In this document: positions 4,692 to 54,860 of the stretch, one piece after another | Position numbering within the stretch: position 1 is the first letter of the stretch | Layout: every line of letters starts with the position of its first letter | DNA from: Clitopilus passeckerianus | Lineage: Eukaryota > Basidiomycota > Agaricomycetes > Agaricales > Entolomataceae | Reading direction: 5' to 3' | Length of the DNA: 64,000 nt | Assembly: GCA_944990035.1 (NCBI GenBank) | Contig: CALYLX010000145.1 | Span: 744,001-808,000 of the forward strand | The notes under the pieces: generated by a model | The model's database searches: none | What the model saw: only the letters and a program-made list of their open reading frames with translations | Told to the model about the DNA's origin: nothing | Made by a program: the position numbers and the translations under genes

Positions 4692-5402
4692 AGCAGTGTC
4701 GCCTCAGATAGAAATTTGCCTACGACGGGAGCAGTTCGAGCTTGGTGGGGCATTTATAGGCGCATGGATACCCCAGAATCTCCCGAACATTACCCACTCA
4801 ACATCTTGAGCGGGTCCGATGTACCGCGCAACGACGACGTCAGGTCGGTCAGGTTGCTTGGACTTCCAAGGCGGCAAGTGGCTTGAAACTTCAGGACCGT
4901 TAGCGGACCGCTTTTAGAGTTCGAAGACACTCTCAGCGTCACCCTCGTGATGCGCTCCCTCATTCAAACCTGGGGAAGAGGGTAGAAACTGGCGGACCAT
5001 CATCCCGCTGAGTATATGCGGGGTTGCTCCGAGACGGCTCGACCGTGATGCTTGTCGTGAGGCATGGCCGCTGTCCGCATCGAATTTACCTCAACTCCCG
5101 GAACGTGACCTTCCCGGAAAGTCAGGCGTTGCTTGTCTTTTCAAAATAGCCTGTGTGCAACAAAAAGTGGTTTCTTTTGGAAGATGGTATTGCAGCATCA
5201 AGGTTGGCTGTGAGAGGCAGGCGACGCGTCCGCTTTGATTGGCTTTGTTTCCTTCAAACCCATCTGATGCTTTATATGAGACTTCGGAGCCGGCCTTACA
5301 TAAATATTGAATTGAAAGCTTGGAAAGCCTCATTTTCAAATTCAATATCATTCATTCACGCGACCAATCCAACAAGCAATACAAACGGCACCGCGTTCAA
5401 GC
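4692..5402. other. Promoter region of the PL4 lyase and 3' flank of the PTEN-like gene
   Basis: No coding exon was recognised. The PL4 gene and the PTEN-like gene both run leftward, so this stretch should carry the PL4 promoter and the PTEN-like terminator. No distinctive element was identified. Confidence 0.4.
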
Positions 5403-15025: not shown

Positions 15026-16982
15026 ATGATTGTAAACCTAGAGGAGTGTTTGAGAAAGGGCTCTCCCATTCCATGGACCGTCCTTGCCCTTGCTTCGAGT
15101 GCGATCCTATACTACTACAGATCACCTTTATCGCGACTATCGCCACCTCCTGGCCCTAAGCCCAAGCTACTCTCAGGTAACGTACACCAACTACCCACAA
15201 CAGAATCTTGGAAGGTCTACAAGGAATGGGCGGAAACGTACGGTATGGCGAACTTCAACATACTTCAGCATATGCATTACTGACCGATAGTCAAATCGAT
15301 TCAGGACCTGTTGTATCCTTCCGAATTTTTAATCGTCGGGTGATTGTCCTCAACACCTACAAAGCCGCCACCGAGCTTCTCGATGGACGGTCCAACCTGT
15401 ATTCCGATCGACCCCAGGCCTGGATGCTGAAAGAGGTCGTTGGACGGAAGTTTGCAGTATTCAACATTTCATCCCATCATACTAGATTCAAGAAATACCG
15501 AAAGGTTTTGCACACTGGCCTTAACACCAGGGCCGTTCAAGAATATTACCCACTCTTTAAACAAGAGGCCCAAGCCCTTCTCAAAAGGTTGTCGGATACA
15601 CCAGAACAGTTCATAAGACATCTAAGGCAGTAAGTGGCGTTGTAACCTCGGTGCCTCGGCGATTGACAATTTCCAGAAACGCTGGTGCGATAATTCTCAA
15701 ACTCGCGTATGGATGGTCGGTCGAGCGCTCGGATGACCCATTCGTGGTCGCTGCAGAGGAAGTGGTGAAGTTGCAGGTCCGAATCTCCAAGCCTGGGCAA
15801 TGGCTCGTTGAATTCTTACCCTTTCGTGAGTGACCAAGCCTTGTCATTTCTTTCACTACTATACTCATGCATATCATTTGCAAGTCCGATTCGTGCCTTC
15901 TTGGTTGCCTGGTGCTGGCTGGAAGAGGCAAGCAAAAGGATTCCGAACAACAATGGAAACAATTGACCGACAAGGGTTCGAATGGACGAAAGAACAAATC
16001 GTAAACCTTTATGGTCCTCCTCCCTTTGTCCATTCCTCAGTAATCCATCCTTAGGCATCCGGCTCCTACGTCCCATCATTTACCTCACACCATCTTCAAC
16101 CCGATGATGGCCATATACCCGATGCAGAAGAAGAGGATATAATCAAATGGTGCAGCTCTGCATTATACGCCGGCGGTGCGGATACCGTAAGTTGTCGCCT
16201 GTTCGTTTCACCAACGCGATCTCAAATACACAGACTGTTGGAATCATGACCGCATTCTTCGCTGCCATGGCTCTGTATCCAAAGGTACAACGCGAAGCAC
16301 AAGAAGAGGTGAATAGAGTCATTGGTGCTGGAGAACTCGACCAAGACGCAGAGCAAGATCTGCCTTACATCTGTGCACTTATCAAAGAGGCCTTGAGGTG
16401 GGGCCATCCTGTACCTCTCGGTGAGCTCATGATTGTTCTCCATCCACTTACCAGACCCTAATAAGTCCCATATAGGGCTTCCGCACAGCGTCATCCAAGA
16501 CGATGAGTTCATGGGATATCGTATTACCCAGGGAGCTACAATCCTTGCCAATATTTGGGCCATAGCACACGATGAAGATGTTTACCCCGATCCTTTTACC
16601 TTTAATCCTCAGCGATTTCTCGGGCCAAATCCTCAGCTTGACCCCAAGAAGTGGGTATTTGGTTTTGGACGTCGAGTTTGTCCTGGTGCGTGAATACATA
16701 TTCTCCACGCCTCGCGTTTGCTACATCTCATGTTGAATAGGTGCACTGTTCGCCGAGAAATCCATTCTTACCAGCGTCGTCGCGGTCCTGAGAACATACG
16801 TCGTTCTCAAACCATTGGACGCTAATGGACATGAAGTAACGCCCACACTTGAATATACAACTGGCGTGACAAGGTCAGTTTGCTTGATTCGTGCAATCTG
16901 AAAATACTGACAATGATAACGCAGTCACATCAAGCCATTTCCCTGCCGCTTGGTTAGGCGTGCAATGGTGGTCAATATCTGA
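15026..16982 (+). CDS. Cytochrome P450 monooxygenase
   Basis: This is a membrane-anchored heme monooxygenase of the O-methylsterigmatocystin-oxidoreductase-like type that is frequent in mushrooms. The start at 15026 is followed by a hydrophobic anchor (TVLALASSAILYYY) and a proline hinge (SPPPGPKP). Spliced exons then show YGPVVSFRIFNRRVIVL, an I-helix containing YAGGADT, the K-helix ExxR (KEALRWG), the PERF-type segment FNPQRFLG and the heme loop FGFGRRVCPG. An intron falls right after the heme loop. The last short exon ends at 16982 after SHIKPFPCRL. At least eight introns are present, and all hallmark residues are intact. It sits beside a UstYa-family oxidase and four repeat-peptide precursors, so a tailoring role on those peptides is possible but unproven. 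Confidence 0.92.
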
Positions 16983-17231
16983 GGCACATCTTTGTTGCAT
17001 CGTTCTGTATACCTCACGGAAGGGTGAAAAGTCTTCGCATGATGCTGGCTGCTTCGATGTATATATTATAGTCATCATATCGTCCACTCGAGATGTATTT
17101 AGTACTCATGAGGCTCTTTCAGCTGACGAACAGAGCTAAACTACATTTGAACCCGATGCTAGGTCCCAATATTTTCCCATTGTTAAATATTAATTGAGAT
17201 TCATAACTTTCAAGTTGGCTAGAATACCCGT
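16983..17231. terminator. Convergent 3' ends of the P450 and the UstYa-like gene
   Basis: This AT-rich gap holds the 3' ends of two converging genes. A poly(A) signal-like AT stretch lies near 17165-17195. Confidence 0.3.
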
Positions 17232-18280
17232 CTACTTGCCTACGTAATTCGTAGGTAAGCTTACGGCGTCCTGGACATTGTGGATAGCGGGAGGCCAGGG
17301 AATATCATCCTCGACATATTGATGAGGAGTAATCCATTCCTTCAATTTCCTCTCTATGGCCCAGTCTCGGATCTTATCGAAATTGACGCAGGTGTGTGGT
17401 GCGGACAACTGTGGTCGGACAACCTTATCCCTAGGGTCCCACTTCCAGGCCATGGTGGAAACGTCCGCATGGCACCTGAAATACATTTAGCAACGACTAC
17501 ACGGAAAACCGGGACAAAGACTCACATGATGTATTGACGGATTGAATCAATGCAATGAGAGATATGGAGTTGGCTCAAGGAGTCCCAGTCGTAATTATAA
17601 TGTTCCTTGTTGACAGCTTGACGGACTTCATCCTAAGTACCTGGTTAGCACCTGCAGCCGATAGACTCATGTAAACGGGCGAACCAGGCAATGCAACTGG
17701 TGGAAAACGTCCAGAGCGGTGATGTAGTACCCTGGATCATCCAGAATTGGCCATGTTTTATTGACAAGCCTAGCGGCCTGCTCGTGCGGAATCCTGACTC
17801 GAGCATCTGTAGGAGCCTTAGTCGAAGCCTACCGGTTGAGATTGAGTGCACTGACGATCGTGGTACAAGTCTTTCCAAGCTTGATCAGCTTCGGGAGTAA
17901 GCTCTTGATAAACAGTTTGAACAATGAAGCCGTCATCGAAAACTTTGACTTCTTCCTCAAGAACCTCATTGGCTGGGGCTGTCAAGACCATCAGTATCGA
18001 GGAGCCTCCGAACGGCGTGTGGGTCAAACTCACAGTACCACAGAGGTTCGTGTAAGGAGCGCTTCTGATTCGAGACAGCAGCGGAATCTTGTTGTAGTTT
18101 TGCAAGGACCAGAACGGCGATAACGATTGTCTGGAACAGAATCCCGATCGTGAAGAGCCAGTCACGACGAGAGAGCTTCGGTGTGCGGCGTGTCGACCTA
18201 GCTGGGAGGATTGGACTCCCAAGGTCAGAGTTGCTCTCATCCGCCATGAGAGGCATGTAATCGGCGGAACTCTTGCTCAT
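17232..18280 (-). CDS. UstYa/DUF3328-family oxidase
   Basis: UstYa-family proteins are metal-dependent oxidases. In ustiloxin, phomopsin, asperipin and victorin biosynthesis they act on ribosomal peptide cores, for example in oxidative macrocyclisation. The spliced protein is about 280 residues. A cytosolic N-terminus of about 40 residues precedes one membrane helix (about 41-62, WLFTIGILFQTIVIAVLVLA). The family lead LWYSPANEV follows, then the two signature HxxHC motifs: HQLHC (about 159-163, in LDVFHQLHCL) and HISHC (about 187-191). After these come CHADVSTMAWKW and HTCVNFDKIRDWA, also typical of the family. About five introns of roughly 50 bp are required; the one before HARVRIPHEQ is 49 bp with a CTAAG branch site. 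Both catalytic motifs are intact. It runs leftward, away from the first precursor gene. Confidence 0.93.
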
Positions 18281-19605
18281 TTCGAAAGCAAAAGAAAGTT
18301 ACAAACAGGGGTGCTGGTTGAGACTGTCAGGGGAACCTTTTGCCCACATTAATAGCCTCAGCCTGGCACATAGTTCGGACATTTAGTCGTCACCTCCCAT
18401 CAAGATTCCAAGCCTGGATCTGTCTAGTAGCCTTTGACATGTTCTGGTGGTGGAGAGGTATGATAACACCAGGTAGACTCCCATCCTGCATGCTGTCCCG
18501 GCCGTAACCAAGGCGAGTCGGACGTCAGTGAACTGTGGACGGATTGGGATACCGAAGTTCTTCCCCATTCGGACACCCGATAAGATGATCTCCGTGATCT
18601 AGGTGGGGCATCTTTGATAACCTGTTTCGCGCCTTTAAGCTTTATCCTCCATGGTCATTCTCAATCCGACAGCGGAAAGGGGCTCATATGACTTGGATTA
18701 GACACGAACAGATGACCACGGGGCCTGACTCAAAATCAGGTAACTATTAAGTTTCACGACTACTTGGATTTTTATGTTATCTGAGAATGTTTTCTCTCCC
18801 GCGCCCGGCTACTTCCCGATCAGCTGAGGCCAGATATAAATTTCAGGAGATTAATGGCTGGAAGGTTCCCTTGCATGCGGAAGCCGTCAGGATAATCACT
18901 TACGAATGTAACGTACCTTTTATTTGACAGCGGGTGTGGCCACGGCCATGTTGTTCTCTGGACAAAACTTGAATGAATAAATCTGTCACTGTTCACAGAT
19001 GACAGCAGCATTACCGATTACCCTCTAGTAATGGCCTAAAAATACCGCACTCAAGCACCAAGTGCCATTCGGCGGGTGGAGGTTACGTTGGCAGCTTGCG
19101 GATTGGATTGCCCAAGTCGAGCGTTGCCGAATCACGGCATTAGCCACATCAATCTGTCTGTGGACCTAGCCCGTATTTTCACTTGTATCTCTTTATGCGC
19201 AACTTGATCGGCTTTCTAGCAATTGTCAAATCCTGGTACAAGTCTTCCCCTCGTTCACGAGCTCAACACCGGCAATTACTTGTGCCTACTAGCAAAAAAC
19301 AGAAACAACAAGGCATCCCTCCCTTTACGATGAGTGCCGGATACAATATCCATAACTCACCATTTGAAAAGAAACTGCTAACGCCTGAGTTTTTCTATTC
19401 TTATCTTTTGACTCCTAGATCACACGCTCGTCTGACATGAATACAAGAGCCTTCAACGTCATGACCAACCGCAAGAAATCTGCCTCGCCGCTTATGCGGA
19501 ACTCACCAATCCAACACCTTATCATTGCCTATGTTCTGTCACAAGTCGACCTAGGGTTTAGCTGATTCAGGTAGAGGCCTGAGTCTGAATGGTCCTCTGA
19601 CGGAT
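18281..19605. other. Intergenic region between the UstYa-like gene and precursor A
   Basis: No gene was recognised. It contains the UstYa-like promoter on the left. The stretch near 18880-18960 shows weak similarity to 21090-21220, both including a TTTGACAGCG block, which suggests duplicated flanking DNA. Confidence 0.35.
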
Positions 19606-19632
19606 AGCCTCGGGTGTTGACGTTCATGAAGG
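19606..19632 (+). promoter_or_regulatory. Conserved cluster promoter element, precursor A copy
   Basis: A 27-bp block begins AGCCTCGGGT and ends CATGAAGG. It recurs upstream of all four precursor genes at 150-205 bp before the ATG, which suggests a shared transcription-factor site. Confidence 0.6.
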
Positions 19633-19737
19633 TTTCATGTGCTCCCCGTCGTTCTAATTCAATGGGAGCACCAACGTGAGTATTGTGCATGTTCAGGCAT
19701 TCCGAAGATAAAGCGCCCTGGTTTCAGCAGACTCGAG

Positions 19738-19744
19738 TATAAAA
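19738..19744 (+). promoter_or_regulatory. TATA box of precursor A
   Basis: TATAAAA lies 62 bp before the start codon. All four precursor genes have a TATA box 61-67 bp upstream of ATG. Confidence 0.7.
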
Positions 19745-19805
19745 GGTGGCCATCTTCAAGCAGACTGCTTCAACAAATCTTTATTGCTACTACTTTCTTC
19801 TTGAA

Positions 19806-20358
19806 ATGAAGGTCTCAATCTCTGCCAGTCTCTTCACTGCTCTCTTTGTCTGCGTTCATTCAGCGCCAGTCGCCACTCCCGGCGAGCGGGCCGGGGATGG
19901 TGTCTTCGCAAAGTTCTTGTGGAGCGTGTCTGAGGTATAAACCAGAGTCCCTTCAGCATATATAGTGTTCTGATTCAGTTTAATCAGAGGTCTGAACTGC
20001 CTCGTGAGGTAGAAACAAGTCTCTTCCCAAAATTCGTCTGGAGCAGAAAAGGCGCTGCGGACACTGAAGTATGATTATACTCGATTTCGTCGCATATAAT
20101 GTTTAAACCCCGGTTCACAGGTCGACAAGACGACTGAGCTCCCTCGCGACGTAGAGACGAGCCTCTTCCCAAAGTTCGTGTGGAGTAGGAAAGGCGCTGC
20201 CGACGATGGGGTATGATACGAGTCCCTCTCCATGCATACGATGTTCTGATCAAGGTCGATAGGCCAACAAGAGCGCTGAACTCCCTCGTGACGTAAATAC
20301 CAGTCTTTTCCCGAAGTTCGTCTGGAGCAGGAAGGGGGCTGCAGGTGCCGATGTATAA
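19806..20358 (+). CDS. Repeat-peptide precursor A (secreted, UstYa-associated)
   Basis: Four phase-0 exons: 19806-19934, 19988-20068, 20121-20210 and 20272-20358 (127 aa). Exon 1 encodes a signal peptide (MKVSISASLFTALFVCVHSA) plus PVATP and a first core, VFAKFLW. Exons 2-4 are near-copies of one unit, LPR(D/E)VxTSLFPKFVWSRKGAAD. Unlike the other three precursors, exons here do not start with Lys-Arg. Possible processing sites are Pro-Arg before the unit and Arg-Lys after the Trp. The mature region has no cysteine. An alternative acceptor at the start of exon 4 (just after 20254) would shift the frame, so the one ending at 20271 was chosen. No known family was recognised. The role as a precursor is inferred from the signal peptide, repeats and neighbourhood. 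Confidence 0.82.
19988..20358 (+). repeat. Tandem exon-intron repeat, precursor A
   Basis: Three copies of an exon plus part of its intron start at 19988, 20121 and 20272 (steps of 133 and 151 bp). The exons are strongly similar at DNA level across the SLFPKFVWSRKGAAD stretch. Confidence 0.8.
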
Positions 20359-22699
20359 GTTCGGAACTATGCGACGAAGTAGTAGATATCATTATCGTCT
20401 AGTAGCCTACTTATCAGCTTTGTCCCGACATGTTCTGGTGGTTCACCTCGTACCCAAATAGACAGAAAAAGACAGAAAAACTAAGTATGTTTTCAGTTAA
20501 TAGCTCTCTAGACTGTGTAACCCCCGGTTTGAGACTCCCAAACACTTGCAGAGAGAAGGAAGCCTGGGACTGAAGTCACCGAGAGTATCAACAGATTCTT
20601 TATACATATTATATTTAAGCTGCTTTTCGAAGTTGCAGGGCAAGTAGTTGGCCTAACTCTGTATTCGACACCTGCGCATATTTTTTGCAATTATTGCGAC
20701 CTGTATATAGTCTCGTTCATCGTGGTGTCTAGATCGTTGGTCTCTAATTTGCCCCCATCCGAAGCTCCGGACATTCGTGTATGAACCAGAGCACAAACAA
20801 CGAGACCTAAGGTGCGACACCGGTCGAAAACGTTCCATAGGGACTGTTCTACATTTGGTTCAAACTTTGGATGTAGCTTGGCCTTTCTGAGAACATAAAT
20901 CTGCACACGAATCTATAGCCATATTTTCCTCTTATCGAGGAGTACGTTTGCTGAGGGTCCTAGACATTTTCATCGGGGCAAAGCAACCAGCCAGATCGCA
21001 TTGATGGGTTTGGACAGAGAATTGCATGGGGAAGCACCTGAGGGAGGGGATCTGCCGATTTCGGAAGAAAACAGAGGTTACAAGGGTTCCCTTTGCAGCC
21101 CCGTTCGCCGAGATAATCACTCACAGGTCCAAGGTGTATTCTAGCACATGGGGAGAATAGCATCCGAGCCTTGTCAAACTTTACCCTGAATGTATTTGAC
21201 AGCGAGCGTTTACGCACCGATGTCATTTTCTCCACCTAAATGCGCAAATATGTCCGCCCAGGCTTGACACTCTACCGAGTTCCCGAAACGGTCAGGCACA
21301 ATGGTCCAGAAACTTTACATCGGAAGAAGTGCAAGCACGACGAGGAAGAGCACCTAGGGACTTTGGCAGTCGACTTGCAGTGTCTATGAACTAGACCATG
21401 TGCAGATGAGAGATATGAAAATGCGGCATATGTGACTAGAATGAAGCGCAACCGTTGCACCGGGGGCATAGCCGCGAATTTGGCCAGCACAACGTCACCG
21501 AGTTGGCATATCCAGTCTTTGGATTGCGAAACCGATGCGAAATGGTATCTGTCAGGCACCGATTGCAGGCAGATACCTGACTGACTGCTGTGGGGATCTC
21601 CAGTTGCAAAGCTAAGAATAGCTCACCTCGTCCCTGAGATACTGGATTGATCCGCAAGCAGCAACCTAACCGACTTTGCTGATCCGGGGGGCATAAATCG
21701 ATTGGAGTCACCTTGGAATCTAATGTGTAAGTTCTGTTTTACATGGATTGCACCAAAATGTCAAGAGATGCGAACTTTATTGCGCTCTGTATGAGTCTAG
21801 GCTGCTGTTGCATTTTGAGACGCACCGATACAGGAAAGGCTACCATCATGGCATACAATGCATAGATCTTGTGATCTTATGAGGCAGCAAACCACACCGT
21901 CAGGAACAAGTGTCAAATCACCGTGCTGACAGGTGAAAGCCATTTCACCAGCTGAAGTTCGCCAGACGGTCACAAAAGCCAGATCAGATTCCAGTCTAAC
22001 GCAATCAGCCCCACCTTGATATGCGGGTCTGAATTTATCTTCGAGCGCCGAGTGCCAATAAGCATAGCGTGCCAACAGAGGAGTCGAGTCAAAGTTGAAG
22101 GAGAGTCAAGATTCGGAAGAGTCGGACCTTGTTCTGGCCTAATGATGGTGCCGACCGGTAGCATAGCCACACCAACTATTCTCTCACTGAGCTGGTTCGC
22201 TTTTTCATGCGCAATTCTGGTACTGGTCTTCCAGCGCTTCATTGAGCTCGAAAGTCGGCATCGTATGTTACATGTTCATGGCCGGAATCTTGTTTTAACT
22301 ACCCACTTATTAACTGCTATTTTCATCCCTCATTACTGAAAATTTTGACTGTTGGGCCACGGCTCGTTCAAGATGAAAGCCAGCGATTTGTGATTGACAG
22401 GCCTGTCAAAAGCATAGGTCGGCAGCCGTCGCGTTTGTATGCAAATCTCTGAAACAACCACCGTCCCGACCCTCCCACGGACAGTCTGTAAAATCTTATC
22501 TCAATCAGCAGACCTGTCAGCCAAACGCTACAACTACTACGGTCGCAGCTCAAGCACCTGCAAACCATCAGACTCTCGAGTGTCCTGACTATTGGCGATA
22601 CTCCGATACGGCCGTTTGTCTACTGGCAAACAAAGCAGTCGTACTCAAGTTTGTGCGTCATCGATACACTACACATGGTTCTCTCCGATGCTGACAGCT
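20359..22699. other. Intergenic region between precursors A and B
   Basis: No gene was recognised in about 2.3 kb. The part from about 21960 to 22210 resembles 25160-25330 and 28150-28340 (shared blocks such as CAGCCCCAC...ATATGCGGG). The region around 22600-22680 matches 25845-25940 and 28780-28860. It therefore belongs to a duplicated flanking segment that travels with each precursor gene. Confidence 0.5.
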
Positions 22700-22726
22700 A
22701 GCCTCAGGTGCTGGCTTTCATGAAGG
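22700..22726 (+). promoter_or_regulatory. Conserved cluster promoter element, precursor B copy
   Basis: This copy begins AGCCTCAGGT and ends CATGAAGG, preceded by GACAGCT as in the C and D copies. It lies about 147 bp before the ATG. Confidence 0.6.
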
Positions 22727-22805
22727 ATTCCATCAATCCGAGGCACAGCACGCCCCGAACTCAAGCTTGCTGGAGAAAGGGGGCATTATGACGACCGTGC
22801 CTCGC

Positions 22806-22813
22806 TATAAAAA
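22806..22813 (+). promoter_or_regulatory. TATA box of precursor B
   Basis: TATAAAAA lies about 60 bp before the ATG at 22873. Confidence 0.7.
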
Positions 22814-22872
22814 CCGGCCATCTTAAATCACTCCTCTTCAGCAAGTCTCTACTGCTTTATACTCTTCACAAC

Positions 22873-24139
22873 ATGAAGGTCGCACTTTCTGCTACTCTCT
22901 TCGCTACGTACTTTGTCTACGTCCATTCTGCGCCAGTCGCAGCTCCCGCCCAAGACACGAGCCTCTTCCCGAAGTTTGTGTGGAGTGGGAGTGAGAATGC
23001 CCAGGTATGGTCAGATTCCACTTAGTCACAGATGTTGCTGACACGGTTTCGGCTAGAAACGTGCTGAAGAAACGAGCCTCTTCCCGAAGTTCATTTGGAG
23101 CAGGGAAGGAAGTGCAGATGCTGAGGTACGATCAGAGAAGTCTCATCCCCCCGTATGTTATTCTGATCTAGATATACAGATCAAGAAGAGGGGCGTTGAG
23201 CTTGCCCCAAACTTGTGGCAGATTCCTCCAGGCGCTACCAATTGGGAGCGCCGCGCGATACCTGAGGTGATTTCCCCGCTGTAGTTGCCACAATACGTTT
23301 ACTCATTCTTACGTTCGCAGAAACGCGAGAACGCCCAGGTCGCACCTCTATTCGTCTCCGATCCCGATGGTGGTTGGTTTAACTTGAAGGTACATCTCGC
23401 TGTCCATTTCCTTAGTCGAACGATGAGCTCATTCTTGCGATTTTCAGAAACGCGAGAATCCCCAGGTAGCACCTTTATTCGTATCCGACCCCGATGGCGG
23501 TTGGTTCAACTTGAAGGTACATCTCATGGGTCCCTTGTCGTTCACATAGTTCATCTCACCCATACACGCTTAGAAACGCAAGGAAGCCAAAGTCGAGGAA
23601 ATTCCTATATTCTTAGTGGGCCCCGAAACTGACGGCTGGGCTTGGGAGGTAATTTTCCCATTGTCTTTCGCAGTCGAATGCTCATCGATGCATTCCTAGA
23701 AACGCAGGGAAGCAAAAGTGGGAGAAGTACCTTTATTCAATGGAGATGGCGCATGGATTGGGGTAAACTTACGCGTGTCTTTTTCTCTCGCATAGTCGAG
23801 TGCTCATTCGTCCATTCCTAGAAACGCGAGGAAGCAAAAGTAGAGGAGGTACCTTTATTCTATGGAGATAGCGCGTGGCTCGGGATAGAGGTACGCGCCT
23901 CGACGTCTTTGCATAGTCAAATGCTCATTCACACGTTTCCAGAAACGCGAGAACGCGAAAGTTGAGGAAATCCCTCTATTCGAAACTCCTTCCGACTGGG
24001 ACCCCAGAGGGCCCGGAGAGGTATGCGCCTCGTTCCCTTTTGTATAGTCGAGTGCTCATCCGCACATTCCTAGAAACGCGAGGAAGCCAAGGTCGAGGAG
24101 ATACCTTTGTTTGAGGACATATGGCCATCGCCAGAGTAA
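22873..24139 (+). CDS. Kexin-type repeat-peptide precursor B, ten units in ten exons
   Basis: Ten phase-0 exons: 22873-23004, 23057-23125, 23180-23266, 23321-23389, 23448-23516, 23574-23648, 23700-23762, 23822-23890, 23943-24020 and 24074-24139 (258 aa). Exon 1 has a signal peptide (MKVALSATLFATYFVYVHSA) and the first core, SLFPKFVWSG. Every later exon begins with Lys-Arg, except exon 3, which begins IKKR. Cores in order: SLFPKFIWSREG, NLWQIPPGATNW, PLFVSDPDGGWFNL (twice), PIFLVGPETDGWAW, PLFNGDGAWIG, PLFYGDSAWLGIE, PLFETPSDWDPRG and PLFEDIWPSP. Exons 6-10 share the lead EAKVEEIP. There is no cysteine in the mature region. The KR-E-A arrangement recalls yeast alpha-factor processing by Kex2 and a dipeptidyl aminopeptidase. 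The product is presumably secreted peptides, possibly modified by the nearby UstYa-like oxidase and P450. Confidence 0.88.
23574..24139 (+). repeat. Tandem exon-intron repeat, precursor B exons 6-10
   Basis: Five copies of a 121-131 bp unit start at 23574, 23700, 23822, 23943 and 24074. Each is one exon plus one intron. The introns share a CATAGTCGAxTGCTCATTC-like core, so whole exon-intron units were duplicated. Confidence 0.8.
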
Positions 24140-25958
24140 AGTCCATGGCGACACTTCGCCGTCGTCGCGTGTTTGGATTTGGATTGATGGATCCGAGAGC
24201 AGCAGTGCCGTTATATATGCACACGAATTTGAATGTGGTTGTTGATTACCGGATATCTTATTTATGATTCTACTTCTTTCCACATTCTCCGTGCCTAAGT
24301 CCACACGATATCAAGCGTCAAATTTGTAAACCTAGCAGTGCAACGAAAGATACTAAGTACAGTACCACTGACACCTTTCACGGACCTTCGTCGGCCTCAG
24401 GCGGCAAATCCCTCTCCGCCTGTCTTACCAGTACCATATGAAGTGACGGATACGCGCCCAGGTCCAGTCAACTCAAGCGCGACCGTAATTATTCATTTCC
24501 AAAGTAAGAGGTTTCTCCACGTCACGATTGGAGAGCAGGTGCCGTATATAGACGCGAACGGTGCCCGGTTCTTCCTATGCGCCTGAACTACTTTACAATC
24601 GCATCGATCGGTGCGAACCCTAGGAATGCTGAGAGTTCGTATTTCATTCTGTTTTTAAATTTGAACTTGACCAAGTATTCCCCAGTCTTTCTCATTCGTC
24701 ACAGCATTACCCCAGTCAATTCCAGCCAGCTATTAAAACCGAAGACTCTGAATCGGCATGTCGGCAGCCCAGGGTCTCCTTTCATACCGTGTCGTTGTTT
24801 CTCTTCGCTTATCTTGGCTCACGAAACGGCGGACCGGCCAATGCACCCTTGTTATGTCAATTTTACAGTTTTTAAAGTTGGGAGGAAGCGTAGCTCAGCA
24901 ATATATCAAAATTATAAATTTGACCTGGTCACAGTTTACCTATGCATCCAGTTGGATTGCGCATGTGGTCACATCTAACAAAGCCACAATATGGGGGTCG
25001 AGGAGGTCCGAGGAGCGGGGGATCAACATGGTCCCCATCGCACTTTCAAAGGCCGTGGTATGGCCTACACCTAGAGATTCTGAGAAACTGGTAGAACACT
25101 AAGCATACCGGTACTCAAAGTTGACCGGCCGTTTGACGAACGTTCACCAAAAATCCGAGACTGGAGCAATGAGACCCACATAGGATACGGCATGGTCCTG
25201 GAGGCTTTTTCCAGGTCCGAGTACCACTGAGTCAAGAGTCAAGATTTGACCGAACTTCAAGTTGATAGAACAGAGGAAAATTGCCGGACTCGGACGACGG
25301 CACGATTTGACATTGTACATAGCCACCGAGGCGCGTGTGCCGCGGCCCGGGTCTCCGAGTATACCCGACAAGTCGTTCACCCAAACGTTCACCAGCCTAA
25401 GGATCCACTGGCAGATCTTACCGTAATAGTCTGTCCAGGTCTGTCAACAAGCTCGAGGGGTGGATTCCTCAGGCCGTCAAACAAACTCCAGAGACTACAA
25501 TATCCAGATAAACTATCCAAAAAAACCTCGTTCTATAATCAGAACTCGGAAAGATTGAAGCTTTTTGCAACACTGACGTCACTGGCAGTCAGTAATTCAG
25601 AAAGCTTGGCAGTTGCCCTGAATATCTTGCCGCTGTCGGACAGCCAAATCTGCTTCAACTTGAACGCCCTCGCTGTCAAAGTCATGTCAAATATTAATAG
25701 AGGTGTATATGGAAATCTCTATACACTTCCAAGCTCCAGCAGGCAGTCGGTAGAATGTTCCTCCAATCAGCAAGAGGTTTTAGTGCGAAGCTAACCTATC
25801 TCACAAACATGGCTGAACCCGTTGCAGTCTATCAGAAATTGCTGGTGACCCTCCGCTACGGCCGCCTGTCCGTTGGCACAAACGCAGCTGTTCTCAGGTC
25901 TCCGCGTTATTGGCCGATGCTCTACCATGCACATGGCTCTTTCCAACTCTTGACAGCT
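24140..25958. other. Intergenic region between precursors B and C
   Basis: No gene was recognised. It contains segments similar to those before precursors B and D, for instance around 25570-25720 versus 28500-28660 (shared GACGTCA, TTGCCCTGAATAT, CCGCTGTCGGA and GTCATGTC blocks). Confidence 0.5.
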
Positions 25959-25985
25959 AGCCTCAGGTGGTGACGTTTATGGAGG
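25959..25985 (+). promoter_or_regulatory. Conserved cluster promoter element, precursor C copy
   Basis: This copy begins AGCCTCAGGT and ends TATGGAGG, preceded by GACAGCT. It lies about 178 bp before the ATG. Confidence 0.6.
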
Positions 25986-26094
25986 ATTCCTGCGCCCTCC
26001 CTCAATCAAATCCGATGGATGTCCCGTCACAAAGTCGTAAACAAACTTGTGACTAAGTGTTCCGCAGAACTTGAACAGGCTATTGGGCTTTAGA

Positions 26095-26100
26095 TATAAA
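26095..26100 (+). promoter_or_regulatory. TATA box of precursor C
   Basis: TATAAA lies 63 bp before the ATG at 26163. Confidence 0.65.
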
Positions 26101-26162
26101 GGCTGGCTTTCTGCAGACACCTTTCTTCAGCAAATCTCTGCTGCTTCTACATTCTTCACAAG

Positions 26163-27257
26163 ATGAAGATCGCAATCTCTGCTACCCTCTTCGTCGCTTA
26201 CTTTGTCCACGTCTATGCTGCGCCAGTCGCCGCTCCTAGTGGGCAGATTGGGGCGAGGCAAAAATCTCCCCCGACTCTCTTTCCGAAGTTTGTGTGGAGC
26301 AGACAAGGGACTGCGAACGTTGAGGTACATCTCATCATGACATTCATTTGGGCGAGCTCAACTTATACTCGAATGCTAGAAACGCGAGAAAGCCAAAGTC
26401 GAGGAAATACCTGTATTCTTAGTAGGTCCTGAAAGTGACGGTTGGGCTTGGTGGGGCGATCGGGCAGTAGCCGAGGTGACTTTTCCATTGCATCCCGCAT
26501 ATCGACTCTGCTCAGACGTTCTATTCTAGAAACGTGAGGAAGCAAAGGTCGAGGAAATACCATTGTTCGTCAGTAATGGCGACGGCGGCTGGGTCGGAAT
26601 AGAGGTAGGTGCTTCAATTCCTATAGCGTATTTGAACCCGCTCATACTTTCACAATCAGAGACGCGGCGCAGTAGATGCTGCTTTAAAACCTCTATGGGG
26701 ACCTCTTGGCCATGACGGCTGGGGCGATATACCTGGTTCTGTACGTTCCCGATTGAATATTGCGCGTAGTCTCACCCTCCTCATATTCTCAACCGTAGAG
26801 ACGCGAAGAAGCAAAAGTTGAAGAAATACCATTGTGGATTGGCCCTGAAGTATGGCACAAGCGGGAAGCTGCTCCATCATCCTCTAGCAATATTGTATGT
26901 TCCCTGTCTTAGTCCATGCAGTAAAGCCCCACTCACCTCTCAATCTTAGAAACGCGAAGAAGCCAAGGTTTCGCAGATACCCGTTTTCACCGCTGAAGGT
27001 GATGGTGGTTGGGAACTTGGCCATTATGTATGTTGCCCATTTTTTCCGAGTTAGGCTTGAGTATACCCACAAATGTTTGCTAGCCACGCAACGAAGCGAG
27101 CGAGTGAGAGGTAAGTTCCAATATCTGGCACTCTCAAAAGCGGAGCAACTGATGACCATAAATGTAGGCTAAGAGAGGGATCCCTCCCCCTCCCGAGTTC
27201 AACCTCTTTACTGGCGGGAATGGGTGGCCGGCCCCCAGGGCTGAAGAGGCCGCCTGA
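26163..27257 (+). CDS. Kexin-type repeat-peptide precursor C, seven units in seven exons
   Basis: Seven phase-0 exons: 26163-26324, 26380-26475, 26530-26604, 26660-26740, 26799-26894, 26950-27027 and 27168-27257 (225 aa). Exon 1 has a signal peptide (MKIAISATLFVAYFVHVYAA) and the core TLFPKFVWSRQG. Exons 2-6 start with KR or RR; the last starts AKR. Cores: PVFLVGPESDGWAWWG, PLFVSNGDGGWVGIE, PLWGPLGHDGWGDIPGS, PLWIGPEVW, PVFTAEGDGGWELG and NLFTGGNGWPAPR. This gene mixes unit types otherwise found in A/B (FPKFVWS), B (EAKVEEIPLF) and D (LKPLWGP, PPPEFN). Between the last two exons lies an exon-like relic (27084-27110) with an in-frame stop; the model skips it. There is no cysteine in the mature part. 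A signal-bearing precursor for multiple peptides is inferred. Confidence 0.85.
27084..27110 (+). pseudogene. Vestigial core exon inside precursor C
   Basis: Twenty-seven bases sit between a good acceptor (GTTTGCTAG) and a good donor (GGTAAGT), in phase 0. They read PRNEASE then TGA, which looks like a decayed KREEAKxE exon start. If spliced in, the precursor would end here and lose its last unit. Confidence 0.5.
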
Positions 27258-28883
27258 GCCGACTCGGGAGCCCATCGAACCCTCTAAAACGTCAAGAATT
27301 ATCAGAAATGCGGAATCAATCCTTCTTATGACTAGCGTAGAGAATGAGCCTGTATTTAAACATGCGCCTGTGCCCAAATATTTATTCTTTTCACCTTCCT
27401 CACTCATCACCGATCCACCTGAGTTTCTCGAGTGCTCTCCCAGCTGGAATCAGAGGCTGCGGGTAATATTGGCCAAATTGGGCTCGAGTGTGGAAGCATG
27501 AATTTTCAGCTGGGTATAGCAAAGCAATTGCTAAAGAGAGGGCTCAATGCTTGGACGGCTACTTGATTAATTGTACACGTTGACTTCAGATCTATTCCTT
27601 CTCGACCCAACGGCCGCTTAGCATCGAAACTGGAGGGCAGCGTGGTTTCAGGGTATTCCTGATACTTGACTTAGAGTCTGTAAACGCCCTCCGTCGTCCT
27701 TCCTCAACCTGTATATCCTGTCCCTACATGCCTTTGTACATGAAATTGAAATCCCAAAGCGGCCCATCTTGAAACCCGTTCCCCGTGTGTTCCCCATTGG
27801 AGCTCTGGCACAACGGTGATGAATCGTCGAAAAAGTTATGTACCATGCTTCACAGACAGGAAGGAGATATTGGTCAAGGATTCGAGTCGGATAGAATGGT
27901 GCCTGAGCACTGAGCATAGTAGATCTGGATTGTCCAGGCTGTCACGTCTATCAAAAAAAAGGGGATGGGAGAGGGGCGGACCCGCAAAAGCTATCAACAT
28001 GCGACTGTAATTGTGGACCATTGAGAATAACGACCGCCAGGCACAGATATCACGCCAACACCCTAAATGACAGGTTAGGGTGGAATGATCAAGTCGGCGG
28101 ATCTATGCGCACTTGTTTTTCACGAATCATCAGCTTCGTCGTCAGACGTAGTTTGACAGACGCACCAAAGATCCAGATCCGACATTTACCTGACACAACC
28201 AGCCCCACATTAGTATGCGGAGAGTTTTGAGGGCCCTTTTTCAGGCGCCAGGTACTACCTTTTGGCTAAGAGTTGACCGAATCTCGATACTCAGTGGAGA
28301 GTTGCCGGACGACAGCGCTAGCGGCATGGCTGTATAGCCACATCCATGGGTCCCTGAGCGGTCCGAGCTCCGATTGCCTGCCTTATTCAAATCCTAGTCT
28401 GAGCCTCTCTCCAAACTCAGAGAATGACGCATGAATCCCATATTAAAACTCCCAAGTTAAATAACATAGCCACGTCCTCTTGAAAAATGTATCCTTAAAT
28501 GTAACTTTACTGAAATCGCTGACGTCAGTCTGCAGAACTAACGTGTTGCCCTGAATATTGACACTGACACCTTTGAAACCGCTGTCGGAAAGTAAATCAG
28601 CCCCATCAACCCCATCGCTGGGCAGAGTCATGTCTAATAGACATGCAAATCTCTAACGCAACATACCTTACCGGACTGGTCAGGGGGCCCGAGTCCGAAA
28701 GTTACCCCTTGCTACGGACATGTCTCAATCACCTGCAAGTTATCAGATTTCCAGAGATCGTTGAAACTGACGGCACCCGATGACGGCCATTTGTGCACTG
28801 GCAAACAAACCAGCCGTTCTCAAGTCTGTGCATTATTGGCCGATACACTACGATACACATGGTTTACTTCAAGTTTGACAGCT
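27258..28883. other. Intergenic region between precursors C and D
   Basis: No gene was recognised. The right two-thirds are related to the regions before precursors B and C, as noted for those intervals. Confidence 0.45.
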
Positions 28884-28910
28884 AGCCTCAGGTATTGACA
28901 TTCGTGAAGG
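28884..28910 (+). promoter_or_regulatory. Conserved cluster promoter element, precursor D copy
   Basis: This copy begins AGCCTCAGGT and ends CGTGAAGG, preceded by GACAGCT. It lies about 166 bp before the ATG. Confidence 0.6.
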
Positions 28911-29008
28911 ACTTTGGCGCTCTCCCTCAATCAAATCCGACGGATGCACGGCACACGAGGATACCTGTAGCTCGAGTGTGTCGCAGAAATGGACCATTAG
29001 TCCCTCGC

Positions 29009-29015
29009 TATAAAA
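29009..29015 (+). promoter_or_regulatory. TATA box of precursor D
   Basis: TATAAAA lies 61 bp before the ATG at 29076, in a context (CCTCGCTATAAAA) shared with precursor B. Confidence 0.7.
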
Positions 29016-29075
29016 GCTGGCTATCTCCAACACATTCCTGCAGCAATTTCTCACTGCTACTACGTTCTTCTCAAG

Positions 29076-31472
29076 ATGAAGATCGCAATCTCTGCTACGC
29101 TCTTCGCTGCTTACTTCGTCTACGTCCATTCCGCTCCCGTCGCCGCCCCCGAGGTATGATCAAAGCTCTCTTCGTCACATATTTCATTCTAACCAAGATG
29201 ATGACGTGTAGATTGGCGGAGAGCTTCTGTTCCCGACCAACGCATGGAGGACGGATAAAACCGCGGAAACTCAGGTATTTCCTGACTCTCTCATAAGTAC
29301 ACACTGTTTTGACCACTATCCACAGGCCAAGAGAGTGATTCCTCCATTCAAGGAGACGGACTGGCTTAACCCTAAGAGAGAAATCCCTCCATTCAAGGGG
29401 GCGGACTGGCCTACCCCTAGGAATGTTAAGAGAGAAATACCTCCGTTCAAGGGGACGGACTGGTCTGTCCCTAGAGATGTACCGGTTGCGAAGGTACGTT
29501 CCGTCCTTTCTGGACCAGAGCGACCCTCATGGTTGGTTGGAACTTTAGAAACGCGAGGAAGCCAAAGTCCAAGAAATACCTCTATGGACTAACAACGTAG
29601 GTGGTTGGGAGACCAACACGGTGAATTCTATTTTATGTTGATGAAATTGAACCATACTCATAACCGTTCTAGAAACGTGAGGCAGCTAAACTGGTTGATC
29701 CTGTGTTCGTCCTTGGTCCCGATGGTGGCTGGTATCATGTATAAGCTCCCCATCCTCCATTGATCGAGCTCTGCTTACACCTGGGTTTTAGAAACGTGGA
29801 GAAGCTAAGGCAGAACTAAAGCCTCTTTGGGGACCCTATGGCCAAGACGGTTGGGCTGATATACCTGGCTCGGTGTGTCTTATTCCAGTCCTACGCATTT
29901 GGCTACTTATGTTCCCAATTATAGAAACGTGAGGAGGCAAAGGTCGAAGAGATACCTCTCTGGACGAACAATGTTGGAGGTTGGGAAACAAACACGGTAC
30001 GCCATCACTCGATTGCACGTTGATGAATTCCACTCATACAGACGGTTCTAGAAACGCGAAGAAGCTAAGGCAGAGTTGAAGCCTCTATGGGGTCCTCTTG
30101 GCCAAGACGGCTGGGGCGATATACCTGGCTCGGTATGTTTTCCAGTTAATCTCACAGAGGAGGCAGCTCATGTCTCCAACCGTAGAAGCGCGAAGAAGCA
30201 AAGGTTGAAGAGATACCTCTCTGGGGTCCCCTTGGCCAGGACGGCTGGGGCGATATTCCTGGCTCGGTATGTTTTCTTTTAATCTTGCGCAGGAGGGTGC
30301 TTATGTCCCCAATCGTAGAAGCGGGAAGAGGCAAAGGCCGAAGAGATACCTCTTTGGACTGGCCCTGTGAATTGGGGTTTCGTTCCAGGAAAGGTACTTC
30401 TCCACCCCATTTGCGTAGTCGAGCTGTGCTCATATTTGCGGCTTCAGAAACGCGGAGAAGCGAAGGCAGAGTTGAAGCCTTTGTGGGGACCTTATGGCCA
30501 AGACGGCTGGGCCGATATCCCGGGCTCGGTATGTTTCCATGAGTTGTTTTCTGCACCGGGCCAGGCTGACAGCTACGATGTTAGAAACGGGATGCAGTTT
30601 CTGCCCGCGAACGACCACTATGGCAGGCCCTCGAGAATTGGTCTACTGAACCGCGAGCGGTGAAACGAGGCGAAGCCAATTTAGCAGGGCCTCCATGGGG
30701 TGGCCCTGAATGGCAAAAACCACCATCCGACCGCGAGCTGAACGCAAGGAGTGAGCCCCCTCCTCTCTTCACCGGCATCGTAGGATGGCGCCTCAAGAAC
30801 CCTAATGGCGAGGTGTGTCTCGCTTCCGTGGATACTGGCCTAAAATTGATCAAAGTTGATTGGAGTTCCAGGTTGAAAAGGGGGAGCTGGTGAAATCGGC
30901 GACAGAAAAAGAAAATCTGGAGGTTTCATGGGGTAACAATGGTTGGAGAATAATTCCAGGTCCGGTTGGGAGGAGCGTCCCTGATGTCGAGGTATGTTTT
31001 TGTTTCTGTGTATGTACCGGTCGCTTACCTCTTTATTTAGAAGAGGATGATTCCACCTCCCGACGGCCACGAGTTCAACGTTTTCACTGGTGGCGGAGGA
31101 TGGCCAACCCCCAGGAGTGTGAGCCGGCTCAGATATTGCGCCTTGAACGCATCATTTAACTGTTTACTTAGAATGAGAAGAGGATGATTCCACCCCCCGA
31201 CGGCCACGAGTTCAATGTTTTCACTGGTGGCGGAGGATGGCCAACCCCCAGGAGTGTGAGTTGGCTCAAAATTTGCATCTATAACGGATCATTCAACCGT
31301 TTACTTAGAATGAGAAGAGGATGCCGCTTCCACCTCCCGACGGCCACGAATTCAATGTTTTCGTTGGCGGTAATGGATGGCCAACTCCCAGAGAGGTATG
31401 TACCCAAATTTGTACGGCAACACTTGGACACTGAATCTCCGCCATTCATAGGTTGTGGAAGAGACTGCATAA
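29076..31472 (+). CDS. Kexin-type repeat-peptide precursor D, about 19 cores in 17 exons
   Basis: Seventeen phase-0 exons: 29076-29153, 29212-29274, 29326-29493, 29549-29620, 29673-29738, 29792-29872, 29925-29996, 30052-30132, 30186-30266, 30319-30393, 30448-30528, 30585-30812, 30872-30991, 31041-31118, 31172-31255, 31309-31395 and 31452-31472 (511 aa). Exon 1 is the signal peptide (MKIAISATLFAAYFVYVHSA). Exon 3 alone carries three KR-separated cores (PPFKETDW, PPFKGADW, PPFKGTDW). Exons 4-11 are single KR-led units: PLWTNNVGGWETNT twice, PVFVLGPDGGWYH, PLWGP(Y/L)GQDGW(A/G)DIPGS four times and PLWTGPVNWGF. Exon 12 (76 codons) holds PLWQALENW, PPWGGPEW and PLFTGIVGW. Exons 14-16 repeat EFNVFxGGxGWPTPR. 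The last exon encodes VVEETA. The mature region has no cysteine. It is the largest member of the family. Confidence 0.87.
31041..31395 (+). repeat. Tandem exon-intron repeat, precursor D exons 14-16
   Basis: Three copies begin at 31041, 31172 and 31309 (steps of 131 and 137 bp). Exons 14 and 15 encode the same GHEFNVFTGGGGWPTPR core, and their introns share TGTTTACTTAG or close variants at the 3' end. Confidence 0.8.
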
Positions 31473-32104
31473 GCCCAGATCCAACTAAGCCCCAGAACAC
31501 CAAGGATTTCAATTTCTGGTTATCTCTTTTTCCATGAATCGTATAGAACATCTAGTCGTCGATGTATTTATATCTGAATGTGCCCACGAATATTTATTCT
31601 CTCCTATCTCGCTTCAGTGTAGATCCATGTGAGAGACTCAGGAGCCGGCGGGTCAGAATTTCTCCCCCAGAAGAGCAGCAACTTTGACGGTGAGTAGCAG
31701 AATGAAGCCGGGTTGAATCGATTGTGACAGTGGTTTACCTGGAACATTTCATACGAGCGTCAATTCCTAGTTCTAGTTCCGGAGCCTGCCTGTGGAGAGA
31801 GACCAAGAGCCGCTCGAACAGGAGCTCGCTAAAACTGCTCAGATGTCGGGGCCGTTGTCGAGAAACCAGTGACAATCATCTTCTGATGTGCGCAAGAATA
31901 GATTTGTACATCTTTACTCCTTTCCATATGCTCTCTCCTCAAATCCACACGCTTCTCAGTGTCAGACCCCTATGGCTTCCATGCAGATACTGTCAGGAGT
32001 CCCTCTCTTGACGTCGGTTGCGAAGATATAAAGATGGAGTGCGGATCCGAAGTCAATTCTCGACCTTGGACTGAAGGCCGTCGAAAACTCGTTATTTCTT
32101 CAAC
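31473..32104. other. Intergenic region between precursor D and the serine hydrolase
   Basis: No coding exon was recognised. The right end is the hydrolase promoter and 5' leader; TATAAAG occurs near 32027. Confidence 0.35.
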
Positions 32105-33548
32105 ATGCGGGTATCCTCTCTCGTGCTCCTCGTACCCTTCCTCTCAGCAGCCTTGGCCAGAAAGCATGCGACTGGGAATCTGGTCTACGGGTCGCCAGAG
32201 TCTGTCAACCTCTTGCCACAACCCTTCGCCGACCTGCAGACCAACGTCTCCGCCTACCTCACTGCGCGTAATTACGGATCTGCGTCCTATAACCTCGTTC
32301 ACCCGCTCTATCCTGGCGCAACGGTGATTATTGGCCACCAGAATACTATCGTGTCGCATTTCGCAGTTGGGAAGGAGGTCTTGTACAAGGATGTGAATGG
32401 GACGCAATTGCCTGTCGCTCAGCAATTGCCAGCTCAAAAGGACACCATTTACGACAGTACGTTATCGTTCCCATAATCCAGGCCTTTTCTTGGCTCACAA
32501 CGTCTTTCTAGTGGCATCCCTGTCGAAGATGTTCACCACAATTGCCGCTCTGCAACAGCTCGACACAGGAAAACTGTCGACGAATGCTACTGTTGCTTCA
32601 TACTTACCCGACTTCGCTGTCAACAGCAAAGGCAACATCACCATCCTCATGCTCATGACGCATACGAGTGGGTTCGACGCTGATCCCACGCCCAGTCTAT
32701 GGCAAGGATATGACACCGTCGACGCAAGGAAACAGGCAGTCATTCAGCAGAAGATCATTAACCCTCCAGGATCAACATACCTCTACTCTGACCTCAGTAA
32801 GCCCTCTCATTCAATAACATGACCTTCACCTCACACACTTTCAGATTACATGACCCTCCAAATAGTCCTAGAGACCATCACATCTACCCCACTCGACAAA
32901 CTCGTCCACGACAAGTTCACCGCTCCGCTAGGAATGTGGGATACCTACTACAACCGCGGAAACAAGCCCTTGAAGAAAGAAATCCTCGCCCGCGTTGCCG
33001 CTACCGAATTCCAAATCGCCGCGGAAGGCGCAGCCCCAGATCGCCCACAGCCAGTCTGGGGAACCGTCCATGACGAGAACGCATGGAGCTTGGACGGCGT
33101 CAGCGGACATGCAGGCGTCTTCTCCACCGCTTACGACTTGGCCATCTTCTCTCAGATGATCTTGAACAATGGCACGTATAATGGGGTGCAGATCCTCAAG
33201 CCCGCGACTGTTGATTTGATCTTCCATAACTTCAATACGGCGTTCCCTGGGAATGATCATGGGCTTGGGTTCGAGCTTAACCAGAATTACTGGGCTGGTG
33301 CGATGAAGGGGCCGCAGTGTGCTGGTCATACTGGCTTCACTGGGACTACCATGGCCATCGATAGACGTGAGGTTCCCCCTTCTACTTCAAGAGCAATCGT
33401 AACTCATTAGATGCTGAATATAGCGAGCAATACGTTCTTCATCTTCCTATCCAACCGGGTCCATCCATCCCGAGCCTGGTCAAATGTCAACATAGTGAGG
33501 GAGAATGTTGGTCTTTTCGTAGCGAGGGCTTTGGGAAGGAAGGTCTAA
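32105..33548 (+). CDS. Secreted serine hydrolase, beta-lactamase-related (class C/D-Ala-carboxypeptidase fold)
   Basis: Fungal members hydrolyse esters, amides or peptides outside the cell; the substrate here is unknown. The start at 32105 opens with a signal peptide (MRVSSLVLLVPFLSAALA). Removing an intron after IYD gives the SxxK nucleophile motif in MASLSKMFTTIAAL. Next come the Tyr motif in STYLYSDL and the third motif HTG in CAGHTGFTGTTMAIDR, so all three active-site elements are present. Four exons fit; the last (about 33424-33548) encodes NTFFIFLSNRVHPSR and ends ALGRKV. It lies 0.6 kb downstream of the last precursor and on the same strand. A role in peptide maturation or turnover is conceivable, but nothing in the sequence shows it. 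Confidence 0.85.
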
Positions 33549-53949: not shown

Positions 53950-54860
53950 GGATGTTACTCAAGTCGGCAGCGTTAACATCAACAATGCAGACAAGAGGGC
54001 GACACCCCAATGCTATACCCAGCATACGAGAGACATGCACCATTTGACAGGCTACTTTCGGCGTAGCCTGAGATAGAAGTCAACACTCAGAACAATCGAG
54101 GCCAAAGAAGTAGGCTTTCAAGAGCATGCGACAAATACAAGGCTCCATACCACAAGGACGAGGACGAGGCTACAGGAGGCTCTGAGGCCTTGGCCTTCGC
54201 CCAGCTTCTCCTCGCACGAGTGAACGTCGAGCTTAACCTCGCCGGTGAAAATGGACATACACTGCTAGGCTATTATGCGACTTACTCTAGGTTCACGAGC
54301 GTTGCTGAATTGCCGAGGTCGAAGGGAGCTCGAGCAGTCATGGGTCAGGCGACTGGCGGTGCATTGGACGCTTCTTCATCGGTTTGGGGACGGCTGCATT
54401 CGTTATTTACAAAAGCTACCCTCTCCTTTTGTCGCGCTATTTCCCCGCCCTGGACTGTATACTAAATCACTAATCATTCACCAGTCATCATGCCAAAAAT
54501 GCACTCCCTTCAGTGATATAGACCCTTGGGTTCCCCAGGGAACACTTTCCAGCCTCATGGTGTGAAGTTCAAAGACGCCAGCCTGAAGTTTGAATGCCGT
54601 CAAGGAACTGCCAGTGTGTGCCGCAGTTATCGAGGCATATATCCTCCTTCTTGTCACCGGGTAATGCTTCGAGTAAGTTTGTTCAAGTTGCAGATAGATA
54701 ATCGCTGTTCAAAGGATTTGAGCAACAGTGGATAGAGCTCGTTGAAGCTTGCTATACGAGAGGACGACGGTCTTGGCCGCAGAGGGAGGGGGAAGACGAA
54801 GTGTTTAATGGAAGAGACGAAAGGTGGGATATGTATTCGGATAGAGACTGGACGAAATAA
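53950..54860 (+). pseudogene. Decayed copy of the 3' end of the NACHT-ankyrin gene
   Basis: This stretch is similar in order and orientation to 62200-62870. Shared blocks include ACATCAACAATGCAGAC, TTTCAAGAGCATGCGACAA, the frame LLLARVNVELNLAGENG (compare LLLTREDVDVNLADEEG), GAxxVMGQATxGxxDASS, and the 3' flank GCTACCCTCTCCTTTTGTCG. Frameshifts and insertions break the ankyrin frame, and the rest of the gene is absent. It looks like a truncated, non-functional duplicate left about 8 kb upstream of the intact gene. Confidence 0.75.

Follow-up and report, generated by a model that had tools for sequence, protein, structure and literature searches.

Which peptides does a mushroom make from a gene cluster in which a UstYa-type oxidase gene lies beside several repeat precursor genes, and does the oxidase act on them? 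The question is raised by a 64,000-nucleotide stretch of the Clitopilus passeckerianus genome, called the window below (contig C142, positions 744001 to 808000; assembly of 64.8 Mb in 160 contigs). Seven genes were modelled at 15026-33548, coding for a cytochrome P450, a UstYa/DUF3328 protein, four repeat precursors (pre1 to pre4) and a hydrolase. All gene models are spliced predictions from the DNA. They form a real and intact basidiomycete cluster of KEX2-processed repeat proteins (KEPs), a known kind of cluster, with peptides likely modified by the UstYa protein. The reading that we prefer, at a probability of about 0.62, is drawn from sequence: the precursors would be secreted, cut by KEX2-type proteases into tryptophan-containing peptides, mostly one per exon, and these would be oxidised by the UstYa protein.

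Gene content and predicted peptides

The features of the cluster are as follows (C94 being the contig of the second haplotype).

15026-16982 (+): cytochrome P450; 9 exons, 508 aa; PF00067, E-value 5.7e-64; intact on C94
17232-18280 (-): UstYa/DUF3328 protein; 5 exons, 280 aa; motifs HQLHC and HISHC; PF11807, E-value 3.7e-46
19605-19632 (+): 28-bp promoter element, starting 201 bp ahead of the pre1 ATG
19806-20358 (+): pre1, secreted-type repeat precursor; 4 exons; three near-identical LPR-(D/E)V-x-TSLFPKFVWSRKGAA repeats
22699-22726 (+): 28-bp promoter element, starting 174 bp ahead of the pre2 ATG
22873-24139 (+): pre2, cassette precursor; 10 exons; 9 dibasic-bounded peptides
25958-25985 (+): 28-bp promoter element, starting 205 bp ahead of the pre3 ATG
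26163-27106 (+): pre3, cassette precursor; 7 exons; 6 dibasic-bounded peptides; ends in PRNEASE-stop, as on C94
27168-27260 (+): possible alternative last exon of pre3 (AKRGIPPPPEFNLFTGGNGWPAPRAEEAA-stop)
28883-28910 (+): 28-bp promoter element, starting 193 bp ahead of the pre4 ATG
29076-31472 (+): pre4, cassette precursor; 17 exons; 16 dibasic-bounded peptides, 14 distinct
32105-33548 (+): beta-lactamase-fold serine hydrolase; 4 exons, 427 aa; signal-like start; PF00144, E-value 5.5e-57

Gene models and Pfam matches agree with the original prediction, an earlier note on this DNA, which had placed in this interval a P450, a UstYa protein with both HxxHC motifs, four precursors and a hydrolase. 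The UstYa protein scores 158 bits against PF11807 (cut-off 25). Its best named relatives are from Schizophyllum, Collybia and Crucibulum, and a comparison by sequence with solved structures gave no match. It is predicted to be a copper oxidase acting on the peptides of the cluster. The P450 gene, convergent with the UstYa gene and 249 bp from it, is predicted to encode a tailoring oxidase; the role of the hydrolase in the cluster is uncertain.

All four precursors, and their second-haplotype versions, begin with secretion-signal-like sequences as judged by eye. From pre2, pre3 and pre4 come 31 peptides of at least 8 aa bounded by KR or RR, of which 29 are distinct and 30 contain tryptophan; these three precursors thus show the repeated peptides between dibasic sites expected of a KEP. 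No such peptide comes from pre1, because its repeats are bounded by LPR and it lacks any dibasic site. The figure of about 40 different cores given by the original prediction has therefore to be lowered, and its description of the precursors as cysteine-free holds for the window, where they lack cysteine past the signal, but not for one pre2 cassette on C94 with two cysteines. A Pfam search with pre2 and pre4, the precursors submitted, matched no family. Identity with cycloamanide (MSDIN) or borosin precursors was considered and rejected: those precursors are processed in the cytoplasm (PMC9769878, as far as available), so that no secretion signal is expected in them, and signal-like starts, judged by eye, are present in all four genes here, with no Pfam domain in pre2 or pre4.

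Cassette exons, haplotypes and the peptide pattern

The precursor genes have an unusual exon structure. All 34 introns in their models (3 in pre1, 9 in pre2, 6 in pre3, 16 in pre4; the wrong tail of the pre3 model excluded) are in phase 0, versus 3 of the 15 introns of the enzyme genes (Fisher p = 5e-9). The initial gene models, unlike the later automatic exon models, did not presuppose phase 0. Post-signal exons of pre2-pre4 begin with KR, RR or PR in 25 of 31 cases (24 under an alternative splice choice for one exon), and in the models nearly each core is a separate exon; the exceptions are two pre4 exons, one with three short cores and one with several. The periods of three repeat arrays, 122, 134 and 137 nt, correspond to an exon plus an intron. 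Since exon and intron move as a unit and no internal cassette shifts the reading frame, a core can be added, dropped or skipped with the protein unbroken. The exon of pre3 at 27168-27260, absent from the C94 haplotype, would possibly be usable only when the PRNEASE exon is skipped.

This cassette-exon build appears to be new. No fungal precursor with one core per exon was recognised in a literature search that covered subscription journals and preprints thinly. The word "intron" is absent from the KEP survey of Umemura 2020 (PMC7329392), and "intron" and "exon" are absent from the available text of Le Marquer 2019 (PMC6339444), which also treats basidiomycete KEPs. The assembly holds a second cassette-exon precursor, adjoining another UstYa gene (C142:67k; L039 about 2375-3050, minus strand), with SNVGDAAFIPVGGRTTYGPREVV units and an exon-plus-intron period of 126 bp; its core is unrelated to that of the window precursors.

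A 28-bp element precedes each window precursor, starting 174-205 bp before the ATG (none in shuffled windows). Genome-wide, with at most 3 mismatches, it has 10 matches (reversed control 0): four in the window, four on C94, one on C137 and one on C55, all before genes of this family. Common descent would explain the sharing of the element, and its preservation suggests some use. The matches on C137 and C55 precede a fifth family gene, pre5, which brings the family to five genes per haplotype:

L032 from about 8990 into L033, and L034 from about 8806 into L035: pre5, unlinked to the cluster

It has the signal, promoter element and sequence pattern of the family; a stop truncates its last repeat. 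Of ten open reading frames (ORFs) scanned in its vicinity, one could be assigned to GH7 and one to DUF6535.

C94 carries the same locus in reverse, with blocks 88-96% identical across the cluster and all seven genes open. We infer that C94 and C142 represent the two nuclei of a dikaryon. The ratio of nonsynonymous to synonymous substitutions (dN/dS; our own Nei-Gojobori script, aligned codons, window versus C94) is 0.11 for the P450 (508 codons), 0.03 for the UstYa protein (280) and 0.03 for the hydrolase (427); it is 0.38 for pre1 (130), 0.15 for pre2 (235), 0.22 for pre3 (204) and 0.35 for pre4 (480), values indicating that the precursor frames are constrained. By exon lists, nine cassettes are restricted to one haplotype (pre2 four, pre3 three, pre4 one, pre5 one). 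Gaps of 127, 478, 140 and 120 nt between the haplotypes in pre2, pre4 and pre5 match exon-plus-intron units at the DNA level; the pre3 alignment is not clean, so its differences rest on the exon lists. Of the 29 distinct window peptides, 9 are found letter for letter on C94.

For the sequence pattern we took the 75 distinct exons of pre2-pre5 from both haplotypes, 61 of them with a dibasic start. Forty-seven of these 61 fit KR-x(5,9)-P-x-[WF]-x(2,14)-W, a pattern derived after the sequences were read and hence a description, not a test. The spacer after KR measures 8 residues in 41 of the 47 fitting exons (mean charge -1.7), and the loop between the aromatic residues 7 residues in 22 and 5 in 15. 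A typical cassette thus reads KR, acidic 8-mer, P-L-W/F, a loop of 5 or 7 residues, W. Some exons in this count, and the pre5 peptides, come from uncorrected automatic pre5 models; the automatic model was wrong at the first exon of pre1 on C94, and the models of window pre1 and pre3 and of pre5 were corrected by reading. Outside the assembly, neither pre4 (7995 candidates scored, E-value up to 0.001) nor a five-row precursor alignment (7994 candidates, E-value up to 10) found a homologue, which is weak evidence for absence since the search scores only candidates sharing most words.

Together with secretion and cleavage, we propose that cassette splicing would assemble the precursors and that the acidic 8-mer would act as an enzyme-recognition element. 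The UstYa protein would oxidise the peptides by copper-dependent cross-linking or hydroxylation, a cross-link probably running from the W or F of P-L-W/F to the tryptophan further along; the P450 may also tailor and the hydrolase trim them. CctR of the cyclochlorotine pathway belongs to the same family: it is a DUF3328 binuclear copper oxidase whose HxxHC(x)nHxxHC motif, shared by the window protein, binds two copper ions (PMC12435403, available in part). CctR is, however, an ascomycete enzyme and hydroxylates a non-ribosomal cyclic peptide. With predicted interchangeable exons beside a UstYa gene, the locus resembles a peptide library of natural origin that changes fast. That the peptides act in the interaction with other organisms is a guess. 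A bolder version, tentative and on balance doubtful, is a system of ribosomally synthesised and post-translationally modified peptides with exchangeable exons: cassettes with a fixed 8-mer and aromatic pair would undergo duplication, loss and shuffling, and the two nuclei would encode different libraries of tryptophan-linked macrocycles, with 5- or 7-residue loops closed by a copper-dependent UstYa protein. Skipping of exons could add to this variety.

UstYa genes and repeat precursors across the assembly

PF11807 has 68 exon matches in the assembly, or 30 loci when merged within 3 kb. Grouped by match pattern, with no tree, 21 loci resemble that of the window (on C142, C93, C94, C26, C74, C79, C123 and C141) and 9 are of another type. 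We read the neighbourhoods of 15 of the 21: C142 at 44.7k, 67k, 90k, 96k, 185-187k, 201k, 761k (the window) and 816k; C93 at 36k, 59k, 89k and 96k; C94:147k; C26; and C123. Those outside the 15 are C74 and C141 (pattern only), C93:174k, C93:188k, C94:75k and C79. A repeat precursor lies within about 3 kb in 14 of the 15, one of them (C93:59k) being matched to C142:67k through its repeat unit, without translation; several of these loci are alleles of each other, and the count on C142 alone is 7 of 8. C26 and C123 were chosen on their UstYa match alone, and both hold KR-SEAAEADTFLQRGIYWPT-type arrays. The closest UstYa paralog, C142:816k, adjoins a precursor whose signal peptide is similar and whose repeats read PLWNGEW. 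A repeat-array screen (period 45-230, at least 2 copies) found none in an 85 kb control and also misses pre5. A stricter ORF rule fails to pick up C26, C142:67k and C93:59k, and its hits include an ankyrin array in L044 as well as true arrays read in alternative frames; a looser one flagged 6 ORFs in the 85 kb control and was discarded as a criterion. A scan limited to runs of exons starting with KR was also set aside. It found none at other UstYa loci, and the conclusion against UstYa that it suggested was reversed by the single-exon and other arrays present there.

A genome-wide search with KR[ED]EA found 45 sites, against 8 in the reversed control. Two or more sites fall within 1 kb at seven places, each of them 1695-2347 bp from a UstYa locus, 0.29% of the assembly being within 2.5 kb of one. 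The motif was derived from arrays known beforehand from UstYa neighbourhoods, and the seven arrays come to about four families once alleles and copies are merged. The paired form has 22 matches (control 0) at the identical seven places. The places on C74 and C141 were new, that on C141 being a copy of the C142:47k family. This recurrence supports modification of the peptides by UstYa proteins, short of proof. The link between UstYa and precursor is accordingly better supported than the original prediction could know. A tblastn search with the P450 and hydrolase proteins of the window did not find them at the other UstYa neighbourhoods, so these two genes may have been added locally or be mere bystanders.

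Most of the repeat precursors next to other UstYa genes are single-exon, with cores such as DSDATFHRSSNGGWYYG, DDDIVFLPQSIGGWAPG, EDIFFYNWGEE and ADTFLQRGIYWP:

L038: 6614-7333
L040: 2754-3173 and 9264-9441
L042: 7309-7713
L044: 5983-6170
L046: 6957-7676
L048: 2149-2793 and 9005-9206
L049: 1600-1917
L050: 3325-3642

A KREEAKEDIVFTYWGEENQ-type repeat precursor was seen at L036 4787-5050 and L037 about 5038-5174, on contigs with no UstYa match. The other UstYa type, on C66, C67, C69 and C139 (L001-L008), has several matches per locus, with C67 and C69 carrying near-copies. Five stretches of some 3.3 kb, from 3 of its 9 loci, showed no repeat array.

Around the cluster, ten flanking ORFs were scanned. 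Three could be identified, namely a cyclin at 13275-13859, a fatty-acid desaturase from 34755 onwards and, at 59885-62599, an ankyrin protein. As no typical partner is among them, the cluster looks bounded. The ankyrin-repeat genes at 54115-62616 have diverged copies just past the window (L044 2072-3891, L045 196-3988), adjoining the closest UstYa paralog.

Known systems and alternative explanations

The original prediction knew of no described cluster with this organisation. Yet DUF3328-accompanied KEPs of basidiomycetes had already been counted (103 of 1680, or 6.1%; Umemura 2020, PMC7329392, available in part), and they share with our locus a secreted repeat precursor, KEX2 sites and a nearby DUF3328 gene. 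In KEP type P-3 of that survey, with members from Galerina, Psilocybe and Coprinellus, tryptophan is said to be accompanied by proline, and a DUF3328 neighbour to be present in 4 of 7. What differs here, as far as the available text allows, are four precursors per cluster, one core per phase-0 exon and cassette differences between haplotypes. In Pleurotus, 16 UstYa-like genes are reported, six of them developmentally expressed, and in all six the expression is allele-specific (PMC8893723, seen in part). The ascomycete dikaritins (ustiloxin, phomopsin, asperipin-2a, victorin) likewise have a secreted multi-core precursor beside a UstYa-family enzyme, but their links are Tyr-based (PMC9233826, in the part available), whereas the locus here has few Tyr, a W/F...W pair and one UstYa gene. 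Of the five gene kinds in the dikaritin definition quoted in PMC12048977 (available in part), the precursor with a signal (by eye) and repeated cores is present; for the transporter or peptidases, the PF00144 hydrolase may be a candidate. Only one DUF3328 gene is in the window, the next on C142 being about 54 kb away (816k); asperipin-2a likewise has a single DUF3328 protein (PMC7329392, PMC12048977). For tyrosinase (PF00264), the assembly has 12 matches and C142 none. No PF13489 methyltransferase, the one methyltransferase family searched, is in the window, the sole match on C142 being at 1149k.

The lack of a tyrosinase match on C142 and of a PF13489 match in the window weighs against UstYa-modified peptides, as do the origin of the KR[ED]EA motif, its reduction to about four families and the following observations. 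The P450, UstYa and hydrolase genes show no match to the 28-bp element, and dN/dS is higher in the precursors than in the UstYa and hydrolase genes. The UstYa locus at C142:201k has no repeat array in 10 kb, and a repeat precursor on C82/C83 has no UstYa on its contig. For pre5, a PF11807 search gave no UstYa match on C137 or C55, and no relative of the window P450 or hydrolase was found in the 20 kb read there. The original prediction had held that it would be refuted by related genomes in which the precursors have no UstYa or P450 neighbour, and pre5 is in part such a case inside this very genome; it may rely on enzymes in trans, or require none. Finally, the KEP peptides that have been measured in agarics (Coprinopsis, Lentinula, Pleurotus) are linear, with minimal modification (Vogt 2022, PMC9769878, available in part).

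The last point leads to the main alternative, in which KEX2 and KEX1 would yield linear, unmodified peptides, and the UstYa protein and P450 would act elsewhere or on few cores. Like ours, the agaric KEPs just cited have secreted precursors that carry dibasic sites. Neither pre5 nor the C82/C83 precursor has a UstYa neighbour, and DUF3328 genes accompany only 6.1% of basidiomycete KEPs. The repeated pairing with UstYa in this assembly and the constant aromatic pair, with loops of 5 or 7 residues, argue the other way, and we regard this alternative as unlikely. In the available text of the Coprinopsis study neither DUF3328 nor a cassette-exon build is mentioned; with the term absent, it has no bearing on UstYa-linked KEPs. 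Linear signalling peptides of alpha-pheromone type, in which a STE13-type dipeptidyl aminopeptidase would strip the spacer after KR, are very improbable. Basidiomycete KEPs with STE13 signatures have been described (PMC6339444, PMC9769878, both seen in part), and the spacers are rich in E and A. Of 57 distinct stretches after a dibasic site, however, only 8 have alanine or proline in the second place and 4 carry two dipeptides of this kind in succession; STE13 trimming as the main rule was rejected on this count. Least probable of all is that the repeat genes are decaying or unexpressed and have no present function. Truncated last repeats in pre5 and the C142:814k precursor, and the raised precursor dN/dS, would fit decay; on the other side, the window precursors are open on both haplotypes, dN/dS is 0.15-0.38, and the promoter element is preserved.

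The reading that we prefer thus remains secreted, KEX2-cut and UstYa-oxidised peptides. We found no chemically characterised UstYa-type peptide from a basidiomycete in the literature, subscription journals and preprints being thinly covered. The enzyme-precursor pairs of this assembly, with their readable pattern, make tryptophan cross-linking by a mushroom UstYa directly testable through predicted masses. The cassette-exon build, in turn, provides a route by which a peptide library can change through gain or loss of whole cores while the gene stays intact, a change visible between the two haplotypes of one fungus.

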